Positions 9,744 through 15,854 of a DNA stretch of 15,854 nucleotides are shown here, one piece after another; the stretch's first letter is position 1; each line of letters starts with the position of its first letter. The stretch covers positions 1 through 15,854 of the forward strand of contig JACMLK010000070.1 in NCBI GenBank assembly GCA_014379665.1. The letters are read 5' to 3'. The position numbers were made by a program, and so were the translations under genes. The notes under the pieces are model-generated. The model worked only from the letters and a program-made list of their open reading frames with translations. It did no database searches and was not told the origin of the DNA. The stretch comes from Saprospiraceae bacterium (GTDB lineage: Bacteria > Bacteroidota > Bacteroidia > Chitinophagales > Saprospiraceae).

Positions 9744-9953
9744 CTATAAATTTAAACTCCGCAATACTTCTTCTTCCGGTATACCCATATACTCACAAAA
9801 CTCTCCTACAGTAAGTATCTGGTGGCGTACTTTTCCAAGGTGTTTTTTGATTTTATTGTTCAACATCCAGGCACTTTTAATGCTTTTGCCGGTGATCATG
9901 GCTATATCTTTTGGATAGATGGCACAACGGTAATTTCTAATGTCATGTTGCAT
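9744..9953 (-). CDS. Small helix-turn-helix-like protein
   Basis: A 69-aa protein from the ATG at 9953. It resembles a short conserved type seen in Bacteroidota: an opening IRNYRCAIYPKDIAMITGKS, a basic helix (NKIKKHLGK), and a closing HQILTVGEFCEYMGIPEEEVL in which a second helix-turn-helix-like unit can be seen. The 'PKDIAMITGKSIKSAW' part reads like an excisionase/MerR-type winged-helix DNA-binding core. I infer DNA binding but cannot prove it. Its start codon abuts the long non-coding repeat tract (9954-10691), so it is divergent from the operon on the other side and is a natural candidate for a regulator acting there. The CotH gene lies downstream on the same strand after a 175-nt gap. 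Confidence 0.7.
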   Translation of the reverse strand: MQHDIRNYRCAIYPKDIAMITGKSIKSAWMLNNKIKKHLGKVRHQILTVGEFCEYMGIPEEEVLRSLNL

Positions 9954-10045
9954 TGGTGTTCATATTTTTTGGGGGTTCAATATGGTTAGTTCAGGTTTGT
10001 TCTGGCAGTGTTCGGGGTTCGGTTTTCGGTCAGGATATGCCTTCA

Positions 10046-10172
10046 GTGGGAGTCAGTGGGACTACGGTGGGACTCAGTGGGATCACAGTGGGAGCATCGT
10101 CGGAACGTGGTGGGAGTCTGGTGTTATTATCCCGGGAGGATCTCGGGAGGATCTCGGGAGGGTCATGGGAGG
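10046..10172. repeat. G-block array with about 10.5-bp periodicity
   Basis: GTGGG begins at 10046, 10056, 10067, 10077 and 10088, i.e. spacings of 10, 11, 10 and 11. Related GTCGG and GTGGG words follow at 10099 and 10110. After a short interruption, CGGGAGG or TGGGAGG begins at 10133, 10144, 10155 and 10166, spaced 11 apart. The blocks therefore recur once per DNA helical turn on the same face. Small open frames cross it in all three forward frames, as expected for a G-rich, stop-poor repeat, and none has gene-like composition. It could also form multi-loop G-quadruplexes. Confidence 0.75.
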
Positions 10173-10360
10173 GACTACGGAGCGTCTATGGCTCATCACC
10201 GTAAAATCGCGTGACGGATGACGGTAAAAAGGCAAAGGAAGATGACGAATGCTAAAAATAGGGTACGTACTCATGGCATTGGAATATTATAAGAATAACA
10301 ACCTACATTAACGATGAAGAGTGCTTTTTACGTATGCGATATTTGTTAATGTGGGGATGA

Positions 10361-10381
10361 TTTGCTAAAAATTTTAGCAAA
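10361..10381. promoter_or_regulatory. 21-bp perfect dyad, possible operator
   Basis: TTTGCTAAAA (10361-10370) and its exact complement TTTTAGCAAA (10372-10381) share a single central base, so this looks like a dimeric regulator site rather than a hairpin with a usable loop. It lies 20 bp before the phased A-tract array and 310 bp before the operon start. No T-run follows on the forward strand. Confidence 0.5.
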
Positions 10382-10400
10382 CGATGCCAGCGATGAGGAA

Positions 10401-10600
10401 GAAAAGCGGAAAAAAGGGGAAAAAACCGGTCAAAAATAGAAAAAAGCGGAAAAAACCGGTCAAAAATAGTCAAAACCGGTCAAAAATGGAAAAAAGCGGA
10501 AAAAAGCGGAAGAAAATAGTCAAAAGCGGAAAAAAGCGGAAGAAAACGGTCAAAAATACTCAAAACCGGTCAAAAATAGAAAAAAGCGGAAGAAAGCGGT
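10401..10600. repeat. Twenty consecutive A-tract decamers, predicted curved DNA
   Basis: The tract divides without any slip into twenty 10-bp units. Most start with a run of four or five A (forms such as AAAAAGCGGA, AAAAACCGGT, CAAAAATAGT). Unit junctions are almost always either AA or TC, so the array behaves like a string of two junction types. A-tracts repeated in phase with the helix are the established cause of intrinsic DNA curvature. The array ends 91 bp before the operon's first codon. A lysine-rich open frame (10384-10632) crosses it, which I regard as a by-product of the repeat. Confidence 0.85.
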
Positions 10601-10628
10601 CATTTATTCCCAAAATAGACCCAAGCTA

Positions 10629-10660
10629 TTGACAGGCAACAAATTACCCATGTACATTAC
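10629..10660 (+). promoter_or_regulatory. Weak candidate promoter of the four-gene operon
   Basis: TTG at 10629-10631 is followed after 21 nt by TACATTAC at 10653-10660, which matches four of the six fixed positions of the TAnnTTTG -7 element. It lies between the A-tract array and the ATG at 10692, the expected place for the operon promoter, with the array positioned like an upstream curvature element. Confidence 0.3.
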
Positions 10661-10691: not shown

Positions 10692-11441
10692 ATGGCAAAA
10701 TTAAGTAGTTTATTCAAGTTTGAGGGTACAGTCGATGACTATACTGTGGTCAAAAACAGTAAGGGCACCTTCCTCAGACGAAAAGGCGGATTGTCTAAGG
10801 AAAGGATCGCTACCGATCCTAAACTTAAACGTATCCGTGAAAACAACATGGAGTTCGGTACGCTCGCTGCGGCGTCCAAACTCATTCGTACCACCTTCAG
10901 TAAACTGAAACAGAGTATCAGGGTGCAGTATCTTACCTCCCGCCTCACCAGTATCATCACCGGGATCAAAAACCAGGATGTGACTTCGGCAAGGGGATTG
11001 CGCAAAGTGGCCATTGGCATCGTCAGTGATGAAGGCAAGAAGCTGCTCAAGGGGTTTAATTTCAATGAATCCAAGGTGCTGAGTTCGGTATTGCAGAATA
11101 CCTACACGCTTGACTCTGCAACCGGCGCCATTACCATCCCCGGCCTGATACCCGGTCTGGACATTTTAGGTGGTGTGGGCGCCAATCGGGTAGGACTGCA
11201 GTCTTACTGGGCCAAGATTGATTTTGAAAACGGCGAGTCCGTTATGTCAGAAAGCAATCTGGTCAAGTTAGCCCTGGATGGTACCGCCACTGATGTGACG
11301 CTCAGTCATGCCGCCCCTCCTGCCGGAGACGGAGTGGACGTATTTGTATTGTCGGTCATTTTCTATCAGACGATGAACGGCAATGACTACGTCCTGCTCA
11401 ACGGAGCCCACAATGTTGCAGACATCATAGAAGTGGTGTAG
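10692..11441 (+). CDS. Conserved Bacteroidota protein of unknown function, first gene of operon
   Basis: A 249-aa protein with no signal peptide. The N-terminal third (FEGTVDDYTVVKNSKGTFLRRKGG, then RIATDPKLKRIRENNMEFG and LIRTTFSKLK) is the recognisable conserved part: this 'K-G-T-...-R-x-K-G-G' and 'R-x-R-E-N-x-x-E-F-G' pattern recurs in short Bacteroidota proteins, some near phage-like genes, and has a resemblance to DUF6266-type proteins. Residues about 60-140 are helical and basic. Residues from about 130 on are beta-rich (AITIPGLIPG, SYWAKIDFENGE, DVFVLSVIFYQTMNG) and could form a sandwich domain. The codon use is visibly GC-richer than in the genes after 12430. Its stop is 2 nt before the next start, so it is co-translated with the following gene. 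The function is unknown; a structural or surface-assembly role is only a guess. Confidence 0.82.
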   Translation: MAKLSSLFKFEGTVDDYTVVKNSKGTFLRRKGGLSKERIATDPKLKRIRENNMEFGTLAAASKLIRTTFSKLKQSIRVQYLTSRLTSIITGIKNQDVTSARGLRKVAIGIVSDEGKKLLKGFNFNESKVLSSVLQNTYTLDSATGAITIPGLIPGLDILGGVGANRVGLQSYWAKIDFENGESVMSESNLVKLALDGTATDVTLSHAAPPAGDGVDVFVLSVIFYQTMNGNDYVLLNGAHNVADIIEVV

Positions 11442-11443
11442 TC

Positions 11444-11839
11444 ATGTGTTGCGTGATCGAATTGTGCAGAACCTACCGGGATGAAGTGACCGCCGGACGA
11501 ATCTTCATCAATGATGTGGAAATATGCCGGAGTATCGAACTGCCATGGAGGCACAACATGCCGACCAGGTCGTGTATCCCCGAAGGGCAGTACAGCCTAA
11601 AACTGAGGCATACAGAGAAGTTTGGTGATCATGTGCTGGTAGAAGACGTCCCCGGCAGGAAATGGATACTGATTCATCCTGCCAATTATGCACAAAAGGA
11701 GCTCAGGGGCTGTATTGCACCTGTTATGGAATTGCATGGTGACAAAGGTCTGTATTCACGGGTAGCGCTCAATCTGCTGCTCAGGAATATCAGAAAATCA
11801 GGAATTCATTTATGTCAGTTAAAAATCAGTAGCGAATGA
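11444..11839 (+). CDS. DUF5675-like protein
   Basis: A 131-aa protein matching DUF5675 as I know it: the start VIELCRTYRDEVTAGRIFIND, the ELPW motif, RSCIPEGQYSLKL near residues 43-55, and the core RKWILIHPANYAQKEL followed by RGCIAPV. The conserved histidine in IHPAN and cysteine in GCI are 12 positions apart, in an arrangement that recalls the H...GC active site of L,D-transpeptidases (YkuD), though the spacing is shorter and I do not claim the activity. No signal peptide is visible. It is the second gene of the operon, and its stop overlaps the next start by ATGA (11836-11839). Sharing a unit with two small membrane proteins would fit an envelope-related job, for example cell-wall modification or lysis. 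Confidence 0.85.
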   Translation: MCCVIELCRTYRDEVTAGRIFINDVEICRSIELPWRHNMPTRSCIPEGQYSLKLRHTEKFGDHVLVEDVPGRKWILIHPANYAQKELRGCIAPVMELHGDKGLYSRVALNLLLRNIRKSGIHLCQLKISSE

Positions 11840-12081
11840 AATCATTTATGGAAAGGTGGGCAGCGCCCACACCGAAATTCTTCAAAGTGATCAGAAATGT
11901 TGGTTTAGTATTGGGGGCCGTGGGTACAGCGTTACTCACCGCACCGGTATCCATACCTGCGGTATTGGTCAGTATCAGTGGTTATCTGGTGACGGCAGGG
12001 GGTGTGATCACCGCCGTAAGTCAACTGACGATCCTGAATGATGAATCACCGGCACCTCAAGCAGCAGATGATGAAAAATGA
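11836..12081 (+). CDS. Holin-like two-helix membrane protein
   Basis: An 81-aa protein with an amphipathic start (MERWAAPTPKFFKVIRN) and two adjacent hydrophobic segments, about residues 21-41 and 43-63, separated by a proline-containing turn (APVSIPAV), then an acidic tail (DESPAPQAADDEK). The APTPKFFK...N.G motif and glycine-rich helices recur in small Bacteroidota proteins found beside DUF5675 genes. Size, two helices and charged tail are holin-like, but that is an analogy. Its start overlaps the end of the DUF5675 gene (ATGA) and its end overlaps the next gene, so translational coupling is likely. Confidence 0.75.
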   Translation: MKSFMERWAAPTPKFFKVIRNVGLVLGAVGTALLTAPVSIPAVLVSISGYLVTAGGVITAVSQLTILNDESPAPQAADDEK

Positions 12082-12250
12082 TCATCAGGCGGGCATGGCA
12101 GGCGGTTCCTTAACTGGTTTGCTGGCGAGTATCAGCACGGCAGATCTGTTGACGACTTGTCTGATGGCAGTGACAGGGACGGTGGTGAGTTACTTTGTTT
12201 CGATGATGCTGAAGCGTATTTTTAAGGAGAAGGCTTCAGATCAGGAGTAG
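12071..12250 (+). CDS. Small one-helix membrane protein, last gene of operon
   Basis: A 59-aa protein when started at the ATG at 12071 (others in frame: 12038, 12041, 12068 and 12095). I choose 12068/12071 because it gives a short overlap with the upstream stop (12079-12081), as for the rest of the operon. It has one hydrophobic segment, LLTTCLMAVTGTVVSYFVSMML (12149-12214), and a basic end (KRIFKEKASDQE). It is the smallest partner of the preceding holin-like protein. The function is unknown. The operon terminator begins 26 nt downstream. Confidence 0.6.
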   Translation: MKNDHQAGMAGGSLTGLLASISTADLLTTCLMAVTGTVVSYFVSMMLKRIFKEKASDQE

Positions 12251-12428: not shown

Positions 12429-12556
12429 AAGCCTGATTACTCATTGAACAATTATTTTATGTGTATTTAACTAGTCAATTCCTACAAAAGTCTTACTTAT
12501 GTGATAGTATAAAATAGTCACCAGAAAAAAGAATAGCATAGAGCATAAATAAATTT
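12429..12556. other. AT-rich spacer at the entry to the immunity-gene array
   Basis: No gene is supported in this 128-base stretch. Composition falls sharply compared with the sequence upstream. A minimal open frame from 12508 ends at a TAA (12550-12552), 4 nt before the next start; it encodes a lysine-rich stub, too short to interpret alone. Confidence 0.4.
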
Positions 12557-13174
12557 ATGGAAACAATAAAATTCGAAATAGGACAGTGGGTTTCTACTGA
12601 AGACGGTTATGGTCAAATTTTATACATTAGACCTTTTTATGTTGAAGAATATGAGATTAACAGGCTAGGTAGAAAAAATGGTGAATTCATGAGGTACATT
12701 TTTATTTGTAAAATATTATGTAATTTTCAAGGAAAAATTAAAAAAAGTAAAAGAATTATTGCTTTTACATCTATTTCTAAAATAGATAACGAAGGAATTA
12801 GAATTGTAAATGCTATAAAAAAAGATGATAATCAAGAATATATCAAATATATTTTTTATGATGACAAAATTGGAATTAGACGAGAATTGTTTTTGGGTTT
12901 CAGATTAGAAGAATTGAATTTTAACAGAGATATTTTGTTAAATAATATTTTAGAAATTAATAGAAGGTTATTTCCAAGTTTTACGTATAAAGAGTTTGCA
13001 ACAATGTTTTGTGAGTATGAAATGCCATTTAAGTTAAGTAACCTTATTGAATATGGTAGTGGGAATAAAGGATCTGTTGGATTAAGGTTTGATTCTAATT
13101 TATATAAAGTTAAAGATAAAGAAGCAGTCTTTGATGATGTTAGAATTTTTTTTCAAGGTGAATTAGCATCTTAA
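12557..13174 (+). CDS. Hypothetical protein, likely orphan immunity protein
   Basis: A 205-aa cytoplasmic protein with no signal peptide or membrane helix, from a markedly AT-rich, AAA/ATT-heavy gene. It opens with a beta-rich half (KFEIGQWVSTEDGYGQILYIRPFYVEEYE), has a middle helical part (LEELNFNRDILLNNILEINRR) and ends with a beta-hairpin (VGLRFDSNLYKVKDKEAVFDDVRIFFQGEL). I do not recognise a named family. The size, acidic and aromatic content, AT-rich base use and place at the head of a string of unrelated small genes are typical of immunity proteins of polymorphic toxin systems. That assignment is inferred from context. Confidence 0.7.
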   Translation: METIKFEIGQWVSTEDGYGQILYIRPFYVEEYEINRLGRKNGEFMRYIFICKILCNFQGKIKKSKRIIAFTSISKIDNEGIRIVNAIKKDDNQEYIKYIFYDDKIGIRRELFLGFRLEELNFNRDILLNNILEINRRLFPSFTYKEFATMFCEYEMPFKLSNLIEYGSGNKGSVGLRFDSNLYKVKDKEAVFDDVRIFFQGELAS

Positions 13175-13176
13175 GT

Positions 13177-13248
13177 TATAGTCTCGATCGTCGTAGCTTC
13201 CATCTGCGATATCACAGCAGAGGAAATCTAACACCCAAAGAAAATTAA
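13177..13248 (+). pseudogene. Possible 3' remnant of a toxin gene
   Basis: Between the 205-aa and 200-aa genes one frame reads SLDRRSFHLRYHSRGNLTPKEN and stops at TAA 13246-13248, one base before the next ATG. It is GC-richer than both neighbouring genes and looks like genuine protein sequence (aromatic/basic, with an LTPKEN end). Toxin genes of polymorphic systems end directly in front of their immunity gene, as here. No start codon is present, so it is not a gene today. I cannot identify the toxin family. Confidence 0.4.
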
Positions 13249-13249
13249 A

Positions 13250-13852
13250 ATGAAAGTCAAATATATAGTCGAAAATTTAAAAGAAAAGCTAAAAAATAAA
13301 TTGACAGAAAATGAGGAGAGATTTTTTTCAGACATTAGTGTAATGCCAAATAATTTGCATTTGACCTTTGGCAAGATATATATCGTTCTAGGAGTTGAAT
13401 ATACAGAAAATGGATTTGTTAATTTTATGATTTCAGATGATACAGATGTTACTTATCCAAGTTTTTATCCTTCAGAATTTTTTAAAATTGTAGACAATAG
13501 AGTATCTAAGTATTGGATTAATAGGCCTTCAAACTTTTATCCATTTAAAGAAATTCATTTTCCAAATCTTATAACTTTCTATGAAGCTATAAAAAATAGC
13601 TTTTTTTTTGATGACTTATTAAAATGTAAAAAAAAGGCTTTAGAAGCTTATGAAACTAACAAAGAATTAATGGAAAACGATTATCCAGAAGATCAAATTT
13701 TCTTTGCAGAAAGATTAAGTGACACTTGGGTAATGTGTGCATATTGTGATGACTCTTGGGAAACGGATAATGTTCAAGGTATTATTAAATGTCCTAAAAA
13801 CAGCCATAGAAATAATAATCCATTTTGGAATGATCCAGAAGTAAATAGTTAG
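13250..13852 (+). CDS. Hypothetical protein, likely orphan immunity protein with degraded zinc site
   Basis: A 200-aa protein without signal peptide or membrane helix. It has a helical start (KYIVENLKEKLKNKLTENEERFF), a beta-rich middle with LTFGKIYIVLGVEYTENGFVNFMISDD and YPSFYPSEFFKIVD, and a C-terminal segment CAYCDDSWETDNVQG followed by KCPKNSH. The latter resembles a zinc-ribbon (CxxC...CPxC) in which the last cysteine is replaced. The YPSFYPSEFF and 'SxYW' elements are reminiscent of immunity proteins that pair with secreted toxins. Together with its position 1 nt after a possible toxin remnant, I infer an immunity role. The precise family is unknown. Confidence 0.7.
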   Translation: MKVKYIVENLKEKLKNKLTENEERFFSDISVMPNNLHLTFGKIYIVLGVEYTENGFVNFMISDDTDVTYPSFYPSEFFKIVDNRVSKYWINRPSNFYPFKEIHFPNLITFYEAIKNSFFFDDLLKCKKKALEAYETNKELMENDYPEDQIFFAERLSDTWVMCAYCDDSWETDNVQGIIKCPKNSHRNNNPFWNDPEVNS

Positions 13853-13887
13853 AAACTGATTACCGTTGTTATTATATGAAACTATGA

Positions 13888-13977
13888 TCGTCGCGGTTAC
13901 AAAATACAGGAAAATCAAAGCAAAATATGAAACATCAGAATAGAAATAAGAAAACAAGAGATAATGATAATGAATAA
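13888..13977 (+). pseudogene. Possible remnant in the spacer before the TPR gene
   Basis: The 128-nt spacer holds a 29-codon open frame, in frame with the TPR gene, that ends at TAA 13975-13977, 3 nt before its ATG. It reads as a basic, asparagine-rich tail (GKSKQNMKHQNRNKKT). An 8-bp word, GATCGTCG, occurs at 13886-13893 and also in the previous spacer at 13186-13193. The evidence is weaker than for 13177-13248 and 15217-15477, since low-complexity sequence can give such a frame by chance. Confidence 0.25.
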
Positions 13978-13980
13978 ATT

Positions 13981-14553
13981 ATGAAAAAGAAGGAATTAAA
14001 ATTAAAATTAGAGGAATATTCAAATTATGAGTTTTCTTCTTTAGCTTTATACAATAAGGCTGGAGAAGATTTGTTAAATTCAGATTTCGAATTATTTTGC
14101 TTTGCCAATGATTTAATAAATTGTTGCAAATATAGTCATGCTGAAATAGTACTAAAAAAAATAAACACAAAAAATATCCCAAAAGATCATCTTTGGGAGT
14201 TTTATCAAACAAAGGGATTTCTGTATTTTGAATGGGGAAAGTACAAAAAGGCAAAAGGGAATTTTTTAAAAAGTATTAAACTAAATTGTAACTCAACAGT
14301 TCCTCATGTTTATTTGTCCAATATCTTAGGTAAAGAAGAAAAAGTTTTAGAATCGATTAAAGTCTTAAAAGAAGGGCTTTTAAAGAATGGTGATACAGAT
14401 GAAATTTATTTTAACCTAGGAACAAGGTATGCAATATTAGGAGATTATCAAAAAAGTTTGGAATATCTAAAGGAATGTCAAAAATTGGACCCAAATTTTG
14501 ATAATGTAGAGCACCTTTTAGAAGATATATCTCATTGTATAGAAATTATATGA
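13981..14553 (+). CDS. TPR-repeat protein, possible immunity protein
   Basis: A 190-aa all-helical protein. Tetratricopeptide repeats are visible at about residues 72-105 (WEFYQTKGFLYFEWGKYKKAKGNFLKSIKLN) and 141-174 (EIYFNLGTRYAILGDYQKSLEYLKECQKLDPN), with weaker units at about 38-70 and 107-140. The G-Y/W-x-x-A and L-x-P positions of the TPR consensus are present in the last copy. TPR proteins bind other proteins through their inner groove. In polymorphic toxin loci TPR proteins are known among immunity genes. No signal peptide is seen, so it is probably cytoplasmic. The gene is strongly AT-rich like its neighbours. Confidence 0.8.
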   Translation: MKKKELKLKLEEYSNYEFSSLALYNKAGEDLLNSDFELFCFANDLINCCKYSHAEIVLKKINTKNIPKDHLWEFYQTKGFLYFEWGKYKKAKGNFLKSIKLNCNSTVPHVYLSNILGKEEKVLESIKVLKEGLLKNGDTDEIYFNLGTRYAILGDYQKSLEYLKECQKLDPNFDNVEHLLEDISHCIEII

Positions 14554-14554
14554 T

Positions 14555-14620
14555 AAAACTCTGGGTGGGGTGGCAAATGCCCCTATAAAGCAATTTGAAA
14601 CTTGGATACGGAACACATAA
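14555..14620 (+). pseudogene. Possible 3' remnant of a toxin gene
   Basis: The spacer after the TPR gene is GC-richer than the genes around it and has an open frame reading LGGVANAPIKQFETWIR, stopping at TAA 14618-14620, 12 nt before the next ATG. The residues look like real protein sequence, and there is no start codon. This is the same arrangement as at 13177-13248. I read it as the tail of a toxin left in front of its immunity gene. The toxin type cannot be named from so short a piece. Confidence 0.4.
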
Positions 14621-14632
14621 AGTAGGTGCTTA

Positions 14633-15163
14633 ATGGCAGAAATAAATTTTTATATTAATGATCTTGAAAGAGGAGAGTTGTTTGATTTTCTATTTTCAAA
14701 TGAAATTAGATTATATCCAAGTAAAAAGTACAATTCATCAAATCTTGAAGTAGTGGAGAATCGTAAAAAATTTCTTGAAGCAATTGAAGAAGAAGCAATA
14801 AGGTTCTACTGTATATCTAAACATTTTTCAGTTTACACACTTTATTTGGAAAAGAATGAATTCTCAAAGAATGAGAATTCTTATTATATCAAAGACAAAT
14901 ATGGTGGCCCATATTTTGATATTTCTTTTTATAGAGGGTTTGCAGATGATGCAGGTTTAAGATATAAATGCACATCATTGTTTCACTACCCAAGATATAT
15001 TAAATTGCAAGAGGAATACGAAGAGTTTAAAGTAAATGATGAGTTAAAAGAATATTTCAGGAGAACTATTGAGTTCTTAAAATCAAAATGTAAAAAAGTA
15101 AAAGTGAATGATAGATTTTATTGGGTAAGTATTGATGTTTGCAAAGAGATTAATCTTTTATGA
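14633..15163 (+). CDS. Hypothetical protein, likely orphan immunity protein
   Basis: A 176-aa cytoplasmic protein. The start INFYINDLERGELFDFLFSNEIRLYPSKKY, the central FLEAIEEEAIRFYCISKHFS, and the GGPYFDISFYRGFADDAGLRYKCTSLFHYPRYI segment are of the sort seen in small immunity-type proteins: alternating strands and helices, many aromatic and acidic residues. It ends in a helical part (EYFRRTIEFLKSKCKKVKVNDRFYWVS) with a final strand. I do not recognise a named family, so the role is inferred from its position in the array and from the remnant 12 nt upstream. Confidence 0.7.
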   Translation: MAEINFYINDLERGELFDFLFSNEIRLYPSKKYNSSNLEVVENRKKFLEAIEEEAIRFYCISKHFSVYTLYLEKNEFSKNENSYYIKDKYGGPYFDISFYRGFADDAGLRYKCTSLFHYPRYIKLQEEYEEFKVNDELKEYFRRTIEFLKSKCKKVKVNDRFYWVSIDVCKEINLL

Positions 15164-15216
15164 ATCTTACAGTATTTTTATCTGCGACATATTTTGTTCA
15201 AGTTCGTTATTTTTAA

Positions 15217-15477
15217 AGATTTTTAATACGTTCGAATAGCTCGATTGTTTTTGTAGAGAAAGCTGAAGACTGGATGTATAGAAGCCAAAGAAATTATTGT
15301 GAATTGCAAAATTTATTAGAGAGAGATTTAATGTCCGTAAATACATTCAAATAAAAATTTGGCAACACTCTGAGCAAAACAAGAAAAGAAGTAATCAATG
15401 ATCAAAACAACCCAGAGATCTATCAATGGGAAAATATATCTAATAATATGAGTCGTAAATTTGAACAAAAAGGTTGA
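15217..15477 (+). pseudogene. Degraded toxin C-terminal fragment with an in-frame stop
   Basis: One reading frame runs from after a TAA at 15214 to a TGA at 15475-15477 with a single internal TAA at 15352-15354. The first part (46 codons) includes VEKAEDWMYRSQRNY and ELQNLLERDLM. The second part reads FGNTLSKTRKEV, then NNPEIYQWENIS and NNMSRKFEQKG. Both have normal amino-acid composition, so this is most likely one former gene interrupted by a nonsense change. It ends 1 nt before the ATG of the ankyrin gene, the spacing of toxin-immunity pairs. The 5' end with any start codon is missing. The toxin family is not recognisable. Confidence 0.55.
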
Positions 15478-15478
15478 G

Positions 15479-15854
15479 ATGTTAAAAAAAAATATTTTAA
15501 GTAAAAAAATTATTGATTTGATTGTAGAAAGCAATATTGTAAAATTGAATGAAGAAATAATAATTGATCGAACGATCCTATCTAAAATAAATAAAGATGG
15601 TCAAAATGCTTTAATTATTTCAATGATTTATGAAAAGTATGATGTTTCAATTTTTTTGATAAATAATTTTAAAATTGACATGGATATAAGAGACAAATTA
15701 GGTTGGTCAGCATTACATTATGCAGTTGCCAAAAGAAATGTTTTACTAATTAATAAATTAATTGAAAGAAATGCAGATATTGAAGTAAAAGATAATTATG
15801 GTAATACTCCTTTATGGAGAGCAACTTTTGAATCAAAAGGTTTTGGTGAAATCA
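15479..15854 (+). CDS. Ankyrin-repeat protein, likely immunity protein (3' end cut off)
   Basis: Open frame from the ATG at 15479 to the window edge (125 codons), C-terminus missing. After a helical start (ILSKKIIDLIVESNIVKLNEE) come ankyrin repeats: DGQNALIISMIYEKYDVSIFLINN, then DKLGWSALHYAVAKRNVLLINKLIE, and DNYGNTPLWRATFESKG. The second copy matches the G-x-x-x-L-H-x-A consensus best. Ankyrin proteins are known immunity partners of secreted toxins in polymorphic toxin loci. Here it follows a degraded toxin tail after a single nucleotide, which supports that reading. It is probably cytoplasmic. Confidence 0.8.
   Translation, partial: MLKKNILSKKIIDLIVESNIVKLNEEIIIDRTILSKINKDGQNALIISMIYEKYDVSIFLINNFKIDMDIRDKLGWSALHYAVAKRNVLLINKLIERNADIEVKDNYGNTPLWRATFESKGFGEI

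Follow-up and report, generated by a model that had tools for sequence, protein, structure and literature searches.

What is a run of twenty A-tract decamers, kept in exact 10-bp register, doing directly upstream of an operon? The question is raised by the 15,854-nucleotide stretch of Saprospiraceae DNA analysed here (the window), which lies in contig C203 of a 502-contig genome (G000) and in which the run precedes four genes, the first encoding a 249-amino acid (aa) protein. An earlier note had read the run as a built-in DNA bend, possibly an architectural regulatory or nucleoid-like element. Here, we report that the run, called array 2 in the following, is better described as an operator-like array with one unit per helical turn, of a class that recurs in other bacteria and of which it is the longest found, than as a dedicated DNA bend.

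10402 to 10601, plus strand: array 2, 20 decamers, GG-first register (G/A)G(A/T)(C/A)AAAA(G/A/C)(C/T/A), spacing exactly 10 bp

The decamer run is real and beyond chance. The twenty decamers in exact register described by the earlier note are there, with zero out-of-register bases, although at 10402–10601, one base off the 10401–10600 it gave. The A-tract it ascribed to every unit is at least AAAA in all decamers except the final one (GAAAGCGGTC, AAA), and its two junction types are found as AA in 11 decamers and TC in 9. Over 10397–10602 the identity at lags 10, 20, 30, and 40 is 0.66, 0.65, 0.70, and 0.68, respectively, compared with 0.22–0.50 at the remaining lags from 3 to 44; the peak period-10 identity is 0.73 in 66-bp windows, and the period-10 score of about 3.4 exceeds the maximum of 2.00 among 100 shuffles of the window's upstream region. 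Tandem Repeats Finder (TRF) gave periods of 10, 30, 40, 50, and 90 for the run, the last with 87% matches and 0 indels. Array 2 therefore holds repeated blocks of whole units (e.g., nine units as 90 bp), and with units repeated in such larger blocks the register could be kept by whole-unit duplication alone.

In a sample of the taxonomic family, the 249-aa profile finds a match in 36 of 398 genomes (expectation value, E ≤ 1e-6); in a sample of the order, which takes in the window's family, it does so in 72 of 396 (E ≤ 1e-8), often in several copies. A search of related genomes for equivalent arrays, proposed in the earlier note as a check, did find them upstream of homologues of the 249-aa gene. 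Briefly, a matrix (consensus GGACAAAAG) was trained on the window and on L042 and L054, two loci of the same genus, and its matches were chained with gaps of 9 or 10 allowed. Of 87 held-out loci, 19 score above every one of 60 shuffles, compared with 1 of 86 downstream controls (Mann-Whitney p 8e-7); the unit and the spacing of array 2 are thus found again outside the genus. Loci redundant by 20-mer sharing were removed (113 to 90) for this test, as they were for the pooled autocorrelation and the promoter-box counts below. Across 113 upstream regions, the motif G[GT][ACT]CA[AT][AT] recurs 8 times at a spacing of 9 and 22 times at 10, whereas 110 downstream regions show neither spacing; 28 of those 30 spacings come from seven long-array loci, i.e., the window, L042, L054, L132, L178, L189, and L199.

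What the relatives conserve is not exact 10-bp phasing, which the earlier note had put down to selection or very recent expansion: homologous arrays mix 9- and 10-bp spacings. All spacings are 10 in the window; spacings of 10 and of 9 number ten and one in L042, nine and seven in L054, and six and two in L215, and L132 alternates 9 and 10. A GGnC core, for which static bending would have no need, adjoins many A-runs in two of the order's families. In one genome (G539), where 7 of 15 array-2 places were retrieved, 6 of the 7 directly precede 200-aa genes of a second family that shares its first 58 residues with the window's 249-aa family (hhalign probability 95.5, E 1.6e-8). Six of these 200-aa paralogues (L287 and L289–L293) were aligned and are 68–90% identical to the first, and each has a similar 9/10-bp array and promoter region.

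Array 2 does not stand alone. A second array (array 1), absent from the earlier note, lies upstream of it, and the order along the window is the 69-aa gene, array 1, a dyad, array 2, promoter-like boxes, and the operon:

9744 to 9953, minus strand: gene of a 69-aa helical protein ("small69"), divergent from the operon
9984 to 10180 (about), unstranded: array 1, degenerate 10–11-bp repeats (TCAGTGGGA..., CTCGGGAGGAT...), rich in guanine and cytosine (GC), core period 11
10361 to 10381, unstranded: dyad TTTGCTAAAAATTTTAGCAAA, perfect, 21 bp, between the arrays
10598 to 10617, plus strand: last two units, GGTCATTTAT TCCCAAAATA; by eye they resemble a short form, GTCATTTATT ACCATTTATG, at the same place in L046, with a similar one in L047
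10629 to 10660, plus strand: promoter-like boxes, TTGACA at 10629–10634 and TACATTAC at 10653–10660
10692 to 11441, plus strand: 249-aa protein, first gene of the operon, multi-copy family in relatives

Judged from sequence comparison, array 2, with its GGnCAAAA-like units, is the promoter-proximal one of a pair of arrays, a layout seen repeatedly in front of homologues of the 249-aa gene. An equivalent of the 21-bp dyad was not recognised in the relatives inspected by eye. Upstream of the gene, the best period is 11 and exceeds every one of 100 shuffles in 30 of the 53 family loci used for array 1 (54 loci minus L137, whose upstream region is too short); the more distant family members L142, L143, L145, L146, L148, L151, and L152 gave no period-11 array. 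A scan of 475 kb of the family loci placed 29 period-11 arrays in 35.8 kb of upstream regions and 4 in the other 440 kb. Three of these four (L127, L128, and L129) sit further upstream of the same genes, that of L129 beyond the 69-aa gene, and the fourth is a poly-T stretch in L048. Five similar elements contain 4, 4, 5, 5, and 6 array-1 units and differ by whole 11-bp units; the absence of indels would also be expected if arrays grow by whole units.

In other families of the order, 19 of 62 loci carry a significant upstream array (15 at period 11, 2 at 10, and 2 at 9) and 43 do not; these loci are a part of the order-level matches, and L164, at a contig edge and with a stop inside, was left out. 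Downstream of the same 62 genes there are 0 arrays at periods 9–11 and 5 at 7–8. Pooled autocorrelation over the 90 non-redundant loci gave z of 19.4, 12.7, and 11.5 at lags 11, 22, and 33, and even the 44 loci without a strong array gave pooled z of 4.6, 4.2, and 5.7 at these lags and 5.2 at lag 9. The corresponding downstream values are −2.0, 0.7, and 1.0, with 2.8 at lag 9; please note that the null is rough because downstream z scatters from −6.2 to 4.1 at other lags. An array-1 matrix (unit consensus GTATGGATAGT, units 11 bp apart, trained on seven family loci, 15 shuffles per locus and gap) reached z > 3 at gap 11 in 13 of the 35 remaining loci of the family and in 20 of 49 held-out loci from the order, compared with 0–4 loci at gaps 9, 10, 12, and 13 (0–2 for the loci from the order) and 2 of 58 downstream.

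Read against the Bacteroidota −33/−7 promoter consensus, several relatives carry TTG and TAnnTTTG where the window has its boxes at 10629–10660, and the window's TACATTAC departs from TAnnTTTG in the last two bases. Exact TAnnTTTG occurs 15 times in the last 100 bp before the gene (90 loci), compared with 0–4 per 50 bp further up; the expectation derived from downstream regions is 1.6. The boxes closely follow array 2. Among 21 array-2 loci listed by hand (the three training loci, 15 of the 19 passing the matrix test, plus L213, L166, and L159), a box is found 34–72 nt after the start of the last chained unit, exact in 8 and relaxed in 8 more, the relaxed form being without a control; the other 5, the window included, have neither an exact nor a relaxed TAnnTTTG box at that place. 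A reverse box is present in the intergenic region of 33 of 42 loci with a divergent gene. The window is counted among the 33, but its reverse matches fall within array 2 and are implausible as promoters, and it has no clear reverse box between the arrays. In the 24 loci with both an operon box and a reverse box, the two are 105–106 bp apart in 16 and 95–137 bp apart in 8. By eye, array 2 fills the space between the two divergent promoters and array 1 that between the reverse box and the 69-aa start codon.

What we observe directly is the arrays themselves, the cores and spacings that recur in their units, and where they stand with respect to the promoter-like boxes. One unit per turn, a recurrent core, promoter-like boxes, and copy differences in whole units are together as expected of a cooperative operator, and we lean, with due caution, toward array 2 being an expanded promoter-proximal tandem operator array for a cooperatively oligomerising regulator, with curvature contributing. 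Each 9–10-bp unit (core GGnC or GGAA, then a short A/T run) would be one binding site, and successive sites would lie on about the same helix face. The regulator would bind cooperatively, one subunit per turn, and so coat the DNA immediately upstream of the operon promoter, which would switch or tune the operon and probably the divergent 69-aa gene as well; we infer the binding, the oligomerisation of the regulator, and the direction of regulation. The A-runs may give each site a narrow minor groove, read indirectly, and may pre-bend the DNA, curvature then being a contributing property and not the whole function. The distal 11-bp array could be another set of operators arranged in the same way and, in loci that have the divergent gene, would occupy the leader of that gene.

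Several observations fit this reading, or the divergent 69-aa protein as its regulator, less well. As many as 68 of the 87 held-out loci fail the array-2 matrix test, and all counts overstate independence because the loci are related to one another. A 69-aa homologue is lacking (E ≤ 0.01) in 4 of 16 array-bearing genomes, which were chosen because arrays had been seen in them, G630 and G215 on weaker array evidence. Of the 8 places in G000 that show the strict array-1 pattern (reversed-pattern control, 0), 7 lie away from the 249-aa family, and another genome, G641 (L294–L297; four array-1 places retrieved), has dispersed intergenic elements of TTATAGAGCTC-like 11-bp units with similar flanks. 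A tblastn search with the 249-aa family gave nothing convincing beside the dispersed arrays (best E 0.12). These arrays may be leftover promoters, other regulon members, or moving repeats.

The solo 11-bp arrays in G000 (L279–L285, on contigs C70, C140, C294, C371, C419, C450, and C467) consist of ATAAAGTATGG-like units; they adjoin unrelated genes, one of them atpD-like by eye, and most share flanks, again by eye.

The alternative to be taken most seriously, although we consider it improbable, is that intrinsic curvature is itself the function, i.e., that array 2 is a bent upstream activating sequence or a landing site for a nucleoid protein, with no unit-specific regulator. The curvature values are predictions from a wedge model with parameters after Bolshoy and colleagues. 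The prediction that the earlier note had called for came out as it expected: array 2 reaches 68 degrees per 30 bp, compared with 23.8 ± 4.6 for 40 dinucleotide shuffles, and is the most curved of 313 overlapping window segments. High predicted curvature stands upstream of promoter-like boxes (10629–10660), as in a curved-DNA upstream activating element. Values of 51–55 degrees per 30 bp (shuffles, 19–26) were also obtained for L042 and L054, of the same genus, and for L132, which is more distant; z exceeds 2 in 11 of 18 array-2 loci outside the training set and in 0 of 20 downstream segments. These 18 loci, i.e., the 19 passing the array-2 matrix test without L123, are a biased set, picked by a matrix that rewards phased A-runs.

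Other results sit poorly with curvature as the whole function: 7 of the 18 loci are at or below z 2, the spacing in relatives is 9/10, and the GGnC core recurs. The sister array, array 1, has the tightest period (11) and only weak curvature. The six array-1 regions analysed (window, L042, L047, L060, L116, and L144) give 14–23 degrees per 30 bp, compared with 10–16 for shuffles, the window being the highest at 22.9 (shuffles, 13.0 ± 3.1). The strong predicted bend belongs to array 2, array 1 being weakly curved at most, and the property common to both arrays is therefore one unit per helical turn and not A-tract bending. What survives of the architectural-bend reading is the very high predicted curvature, the place directly before promoter-like boxes, and the equivalents in related genomes; the conservation of exact 10-bp phasing does not.

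We regard as unlikely, more so than a pure bend, that the arrays are functionless and have grown, as neutral or selfish tandem repeats, by slippage and the duplication of whole units. The block periods of 30, 40, 50, and 90 bp inside array 2, the similar elements that differ by whole units, and the dispersed solo arrays in G000 and G641 are all as such growth would leave them. It accounts less well for the recurrence of the unit core, the spacing, and the pre-gene place in another family of the order, for how seldom the corresponding downstream regions have arrays (0 of 62 at periods 9–11; 1 of 86 and 2 of 58 in the matrix tests), or for the pooled peaks at 11, 22, and 33 and at 9 in loci without strong arrays.

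That the arrays serve a mobile element in recombination or attachment, as arm sites of an integrase or sites of an excisionase, is very unlikely in our judgment. The thought comes from L043 and L046–L051, in which, by eye, integrase-like and RteC-like genes precede and adjoin the 69-aa gene; Pfam, run on L050 only, matched the integrase and RteC models there. However, the arrays are intergenic, the window and other array loci have no integrase-like neighbour by eye (beside the window's 69-aa copy there is no RteC-like gene either), and the integrase-bearing stretches gave only one other period-11 hit, the poly-T of L048. That array 2 is part of a short lysine-rich coding frame can be all but dismissed: the frame 10384–10632 is open for 82 aa, but the mixed 9/10-bp spacing of homologous arrays shifts the frame, and the frame through the L054 array encodes a different peptide.

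If the arrays are operators, the leading candidate for their reader is the 69-aa protein, a natural candidate because it is divergently coded, linked, and compact and helical in its model (predicted local distance difference test, pLDDT, 87.6); its identity as the reader we infer on these grounds. Its profile matches 20 of the 398 family genomes (E ≤ 1e-5), and among the family-level matches listed, 27 of 34 pair with an adjacent divergent 249-aa homologue. It matched the excisionase model TIGR01764 at E 0.08 only; there was no PDB sequence match below E 0.25, and Foldseek and VIA gave no clear match. In L055 an open reading frame (ORF) of 175 aa, which by eye we take to be nuclease-like, lies between the divergent 69-aa and 249-aa genes, and L120 has an identical intergenic length.

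Some known systems resemble this layout in part. BldC of Streptomyces is described as a small regulator that binds 9-bp direct repeats, arranged head to tail and varying in number, with an AT-rich narrowed minor groove, indirect readout, DNA bending, and a filament on DNA (PMC5859096). A paper on RdfS adds that one DNA turn separates the bound BldC molecules (PMC11963761). Array 2 is similar, being a tandem of 9–10-bp units with A/T runs, as in the roughly 9-bp, AT-rich units of BldC operators; array 1 has 11-bp units. BldC is a winged-helix, MerR-like protein, whereas the 69-aa candidate has no detectable relationship to it. BldC sites are short, two to four repeats, whereas here an array can have as many as 20 units, and there are two arrays that differ in pitch. 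ParR/parC-type centromeres are arrays of 10–11-bp one-turn direct repeats bound by a small protein; in contrast, the arrays here precede operons at several genome places, and no search for a parM-like partner was made. Phased A-tract promoters have A-runs at about the helical repeat upstream of the promoter and high predicted curvature, and they differ from the present layout in its recurrent GGnC core, its 9/10 spacing, and its weakly curved sister array. RdfS and Xis are small proteins coded by mobile elements that form DNA filaments; RdfS also binds its own promoter region and may act like BldC via indirect readout (PMC11963761). RdfS sites are without a consensus in that account, in contrast to the clear unit cores here.

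A wider reading, which is possible but on balance doubtful, is that a multi-locus regulon of this Bacteroidota order is wired by helix-pitch arrays. Operator arrays of 11 bp and 9–10 bp would flank or fill a divergent promoter pair, each would nucleate a filament of one subunit per turn, the number of whole units would set expression, and the filament rather than the sequence would hold the register. A limited literature search did not find this two-pitch, one-unit-per-turn layout described. The eye-catching A-tract run is in any case tied to a recurrent, measurable layout before a multi-copy gene family, and if a protein filament reads the arrays, the natural series (few to 20 units; spacings of 9, 10, and 11) would allow cooperativity, helical phase, and curvature to be told apart by experiment.

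The operon itself is a four-gene run (10692–12250), and the closest named relative of the locus comes from a Saprospiraceae genome. The 249-aa protein has no Pfam match. The genes that follow it are:

11444 to 11839, plus strand: DUF5675 protein (PF18925, E 1.1e-27)
11836 to 12081, plus strand: 81-aa small protein, conserved in the module, hydrophobic by eye
12038 to 12250, plus strand: 70-aa small protein, conserved in the module, hydrophobic by eye

Repeats of a 12-bp period (TTAAGATTAAGG-like) were seen between the 249-aa and DUF5675 genes in L046 and L050, and about 6 kb upstream in L048. In the rest of the window, at 12500–15854, GC falls sharply from about 48% to 24–29%, and the stretch looks like a separate acquired block. 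It has five ORFs, three without a convincing family, one TPR protein, and one ankyrin protein; the last matches PADLOC PDC-M72A (E 1.4e-7), probably through its ankyrin repeats only.
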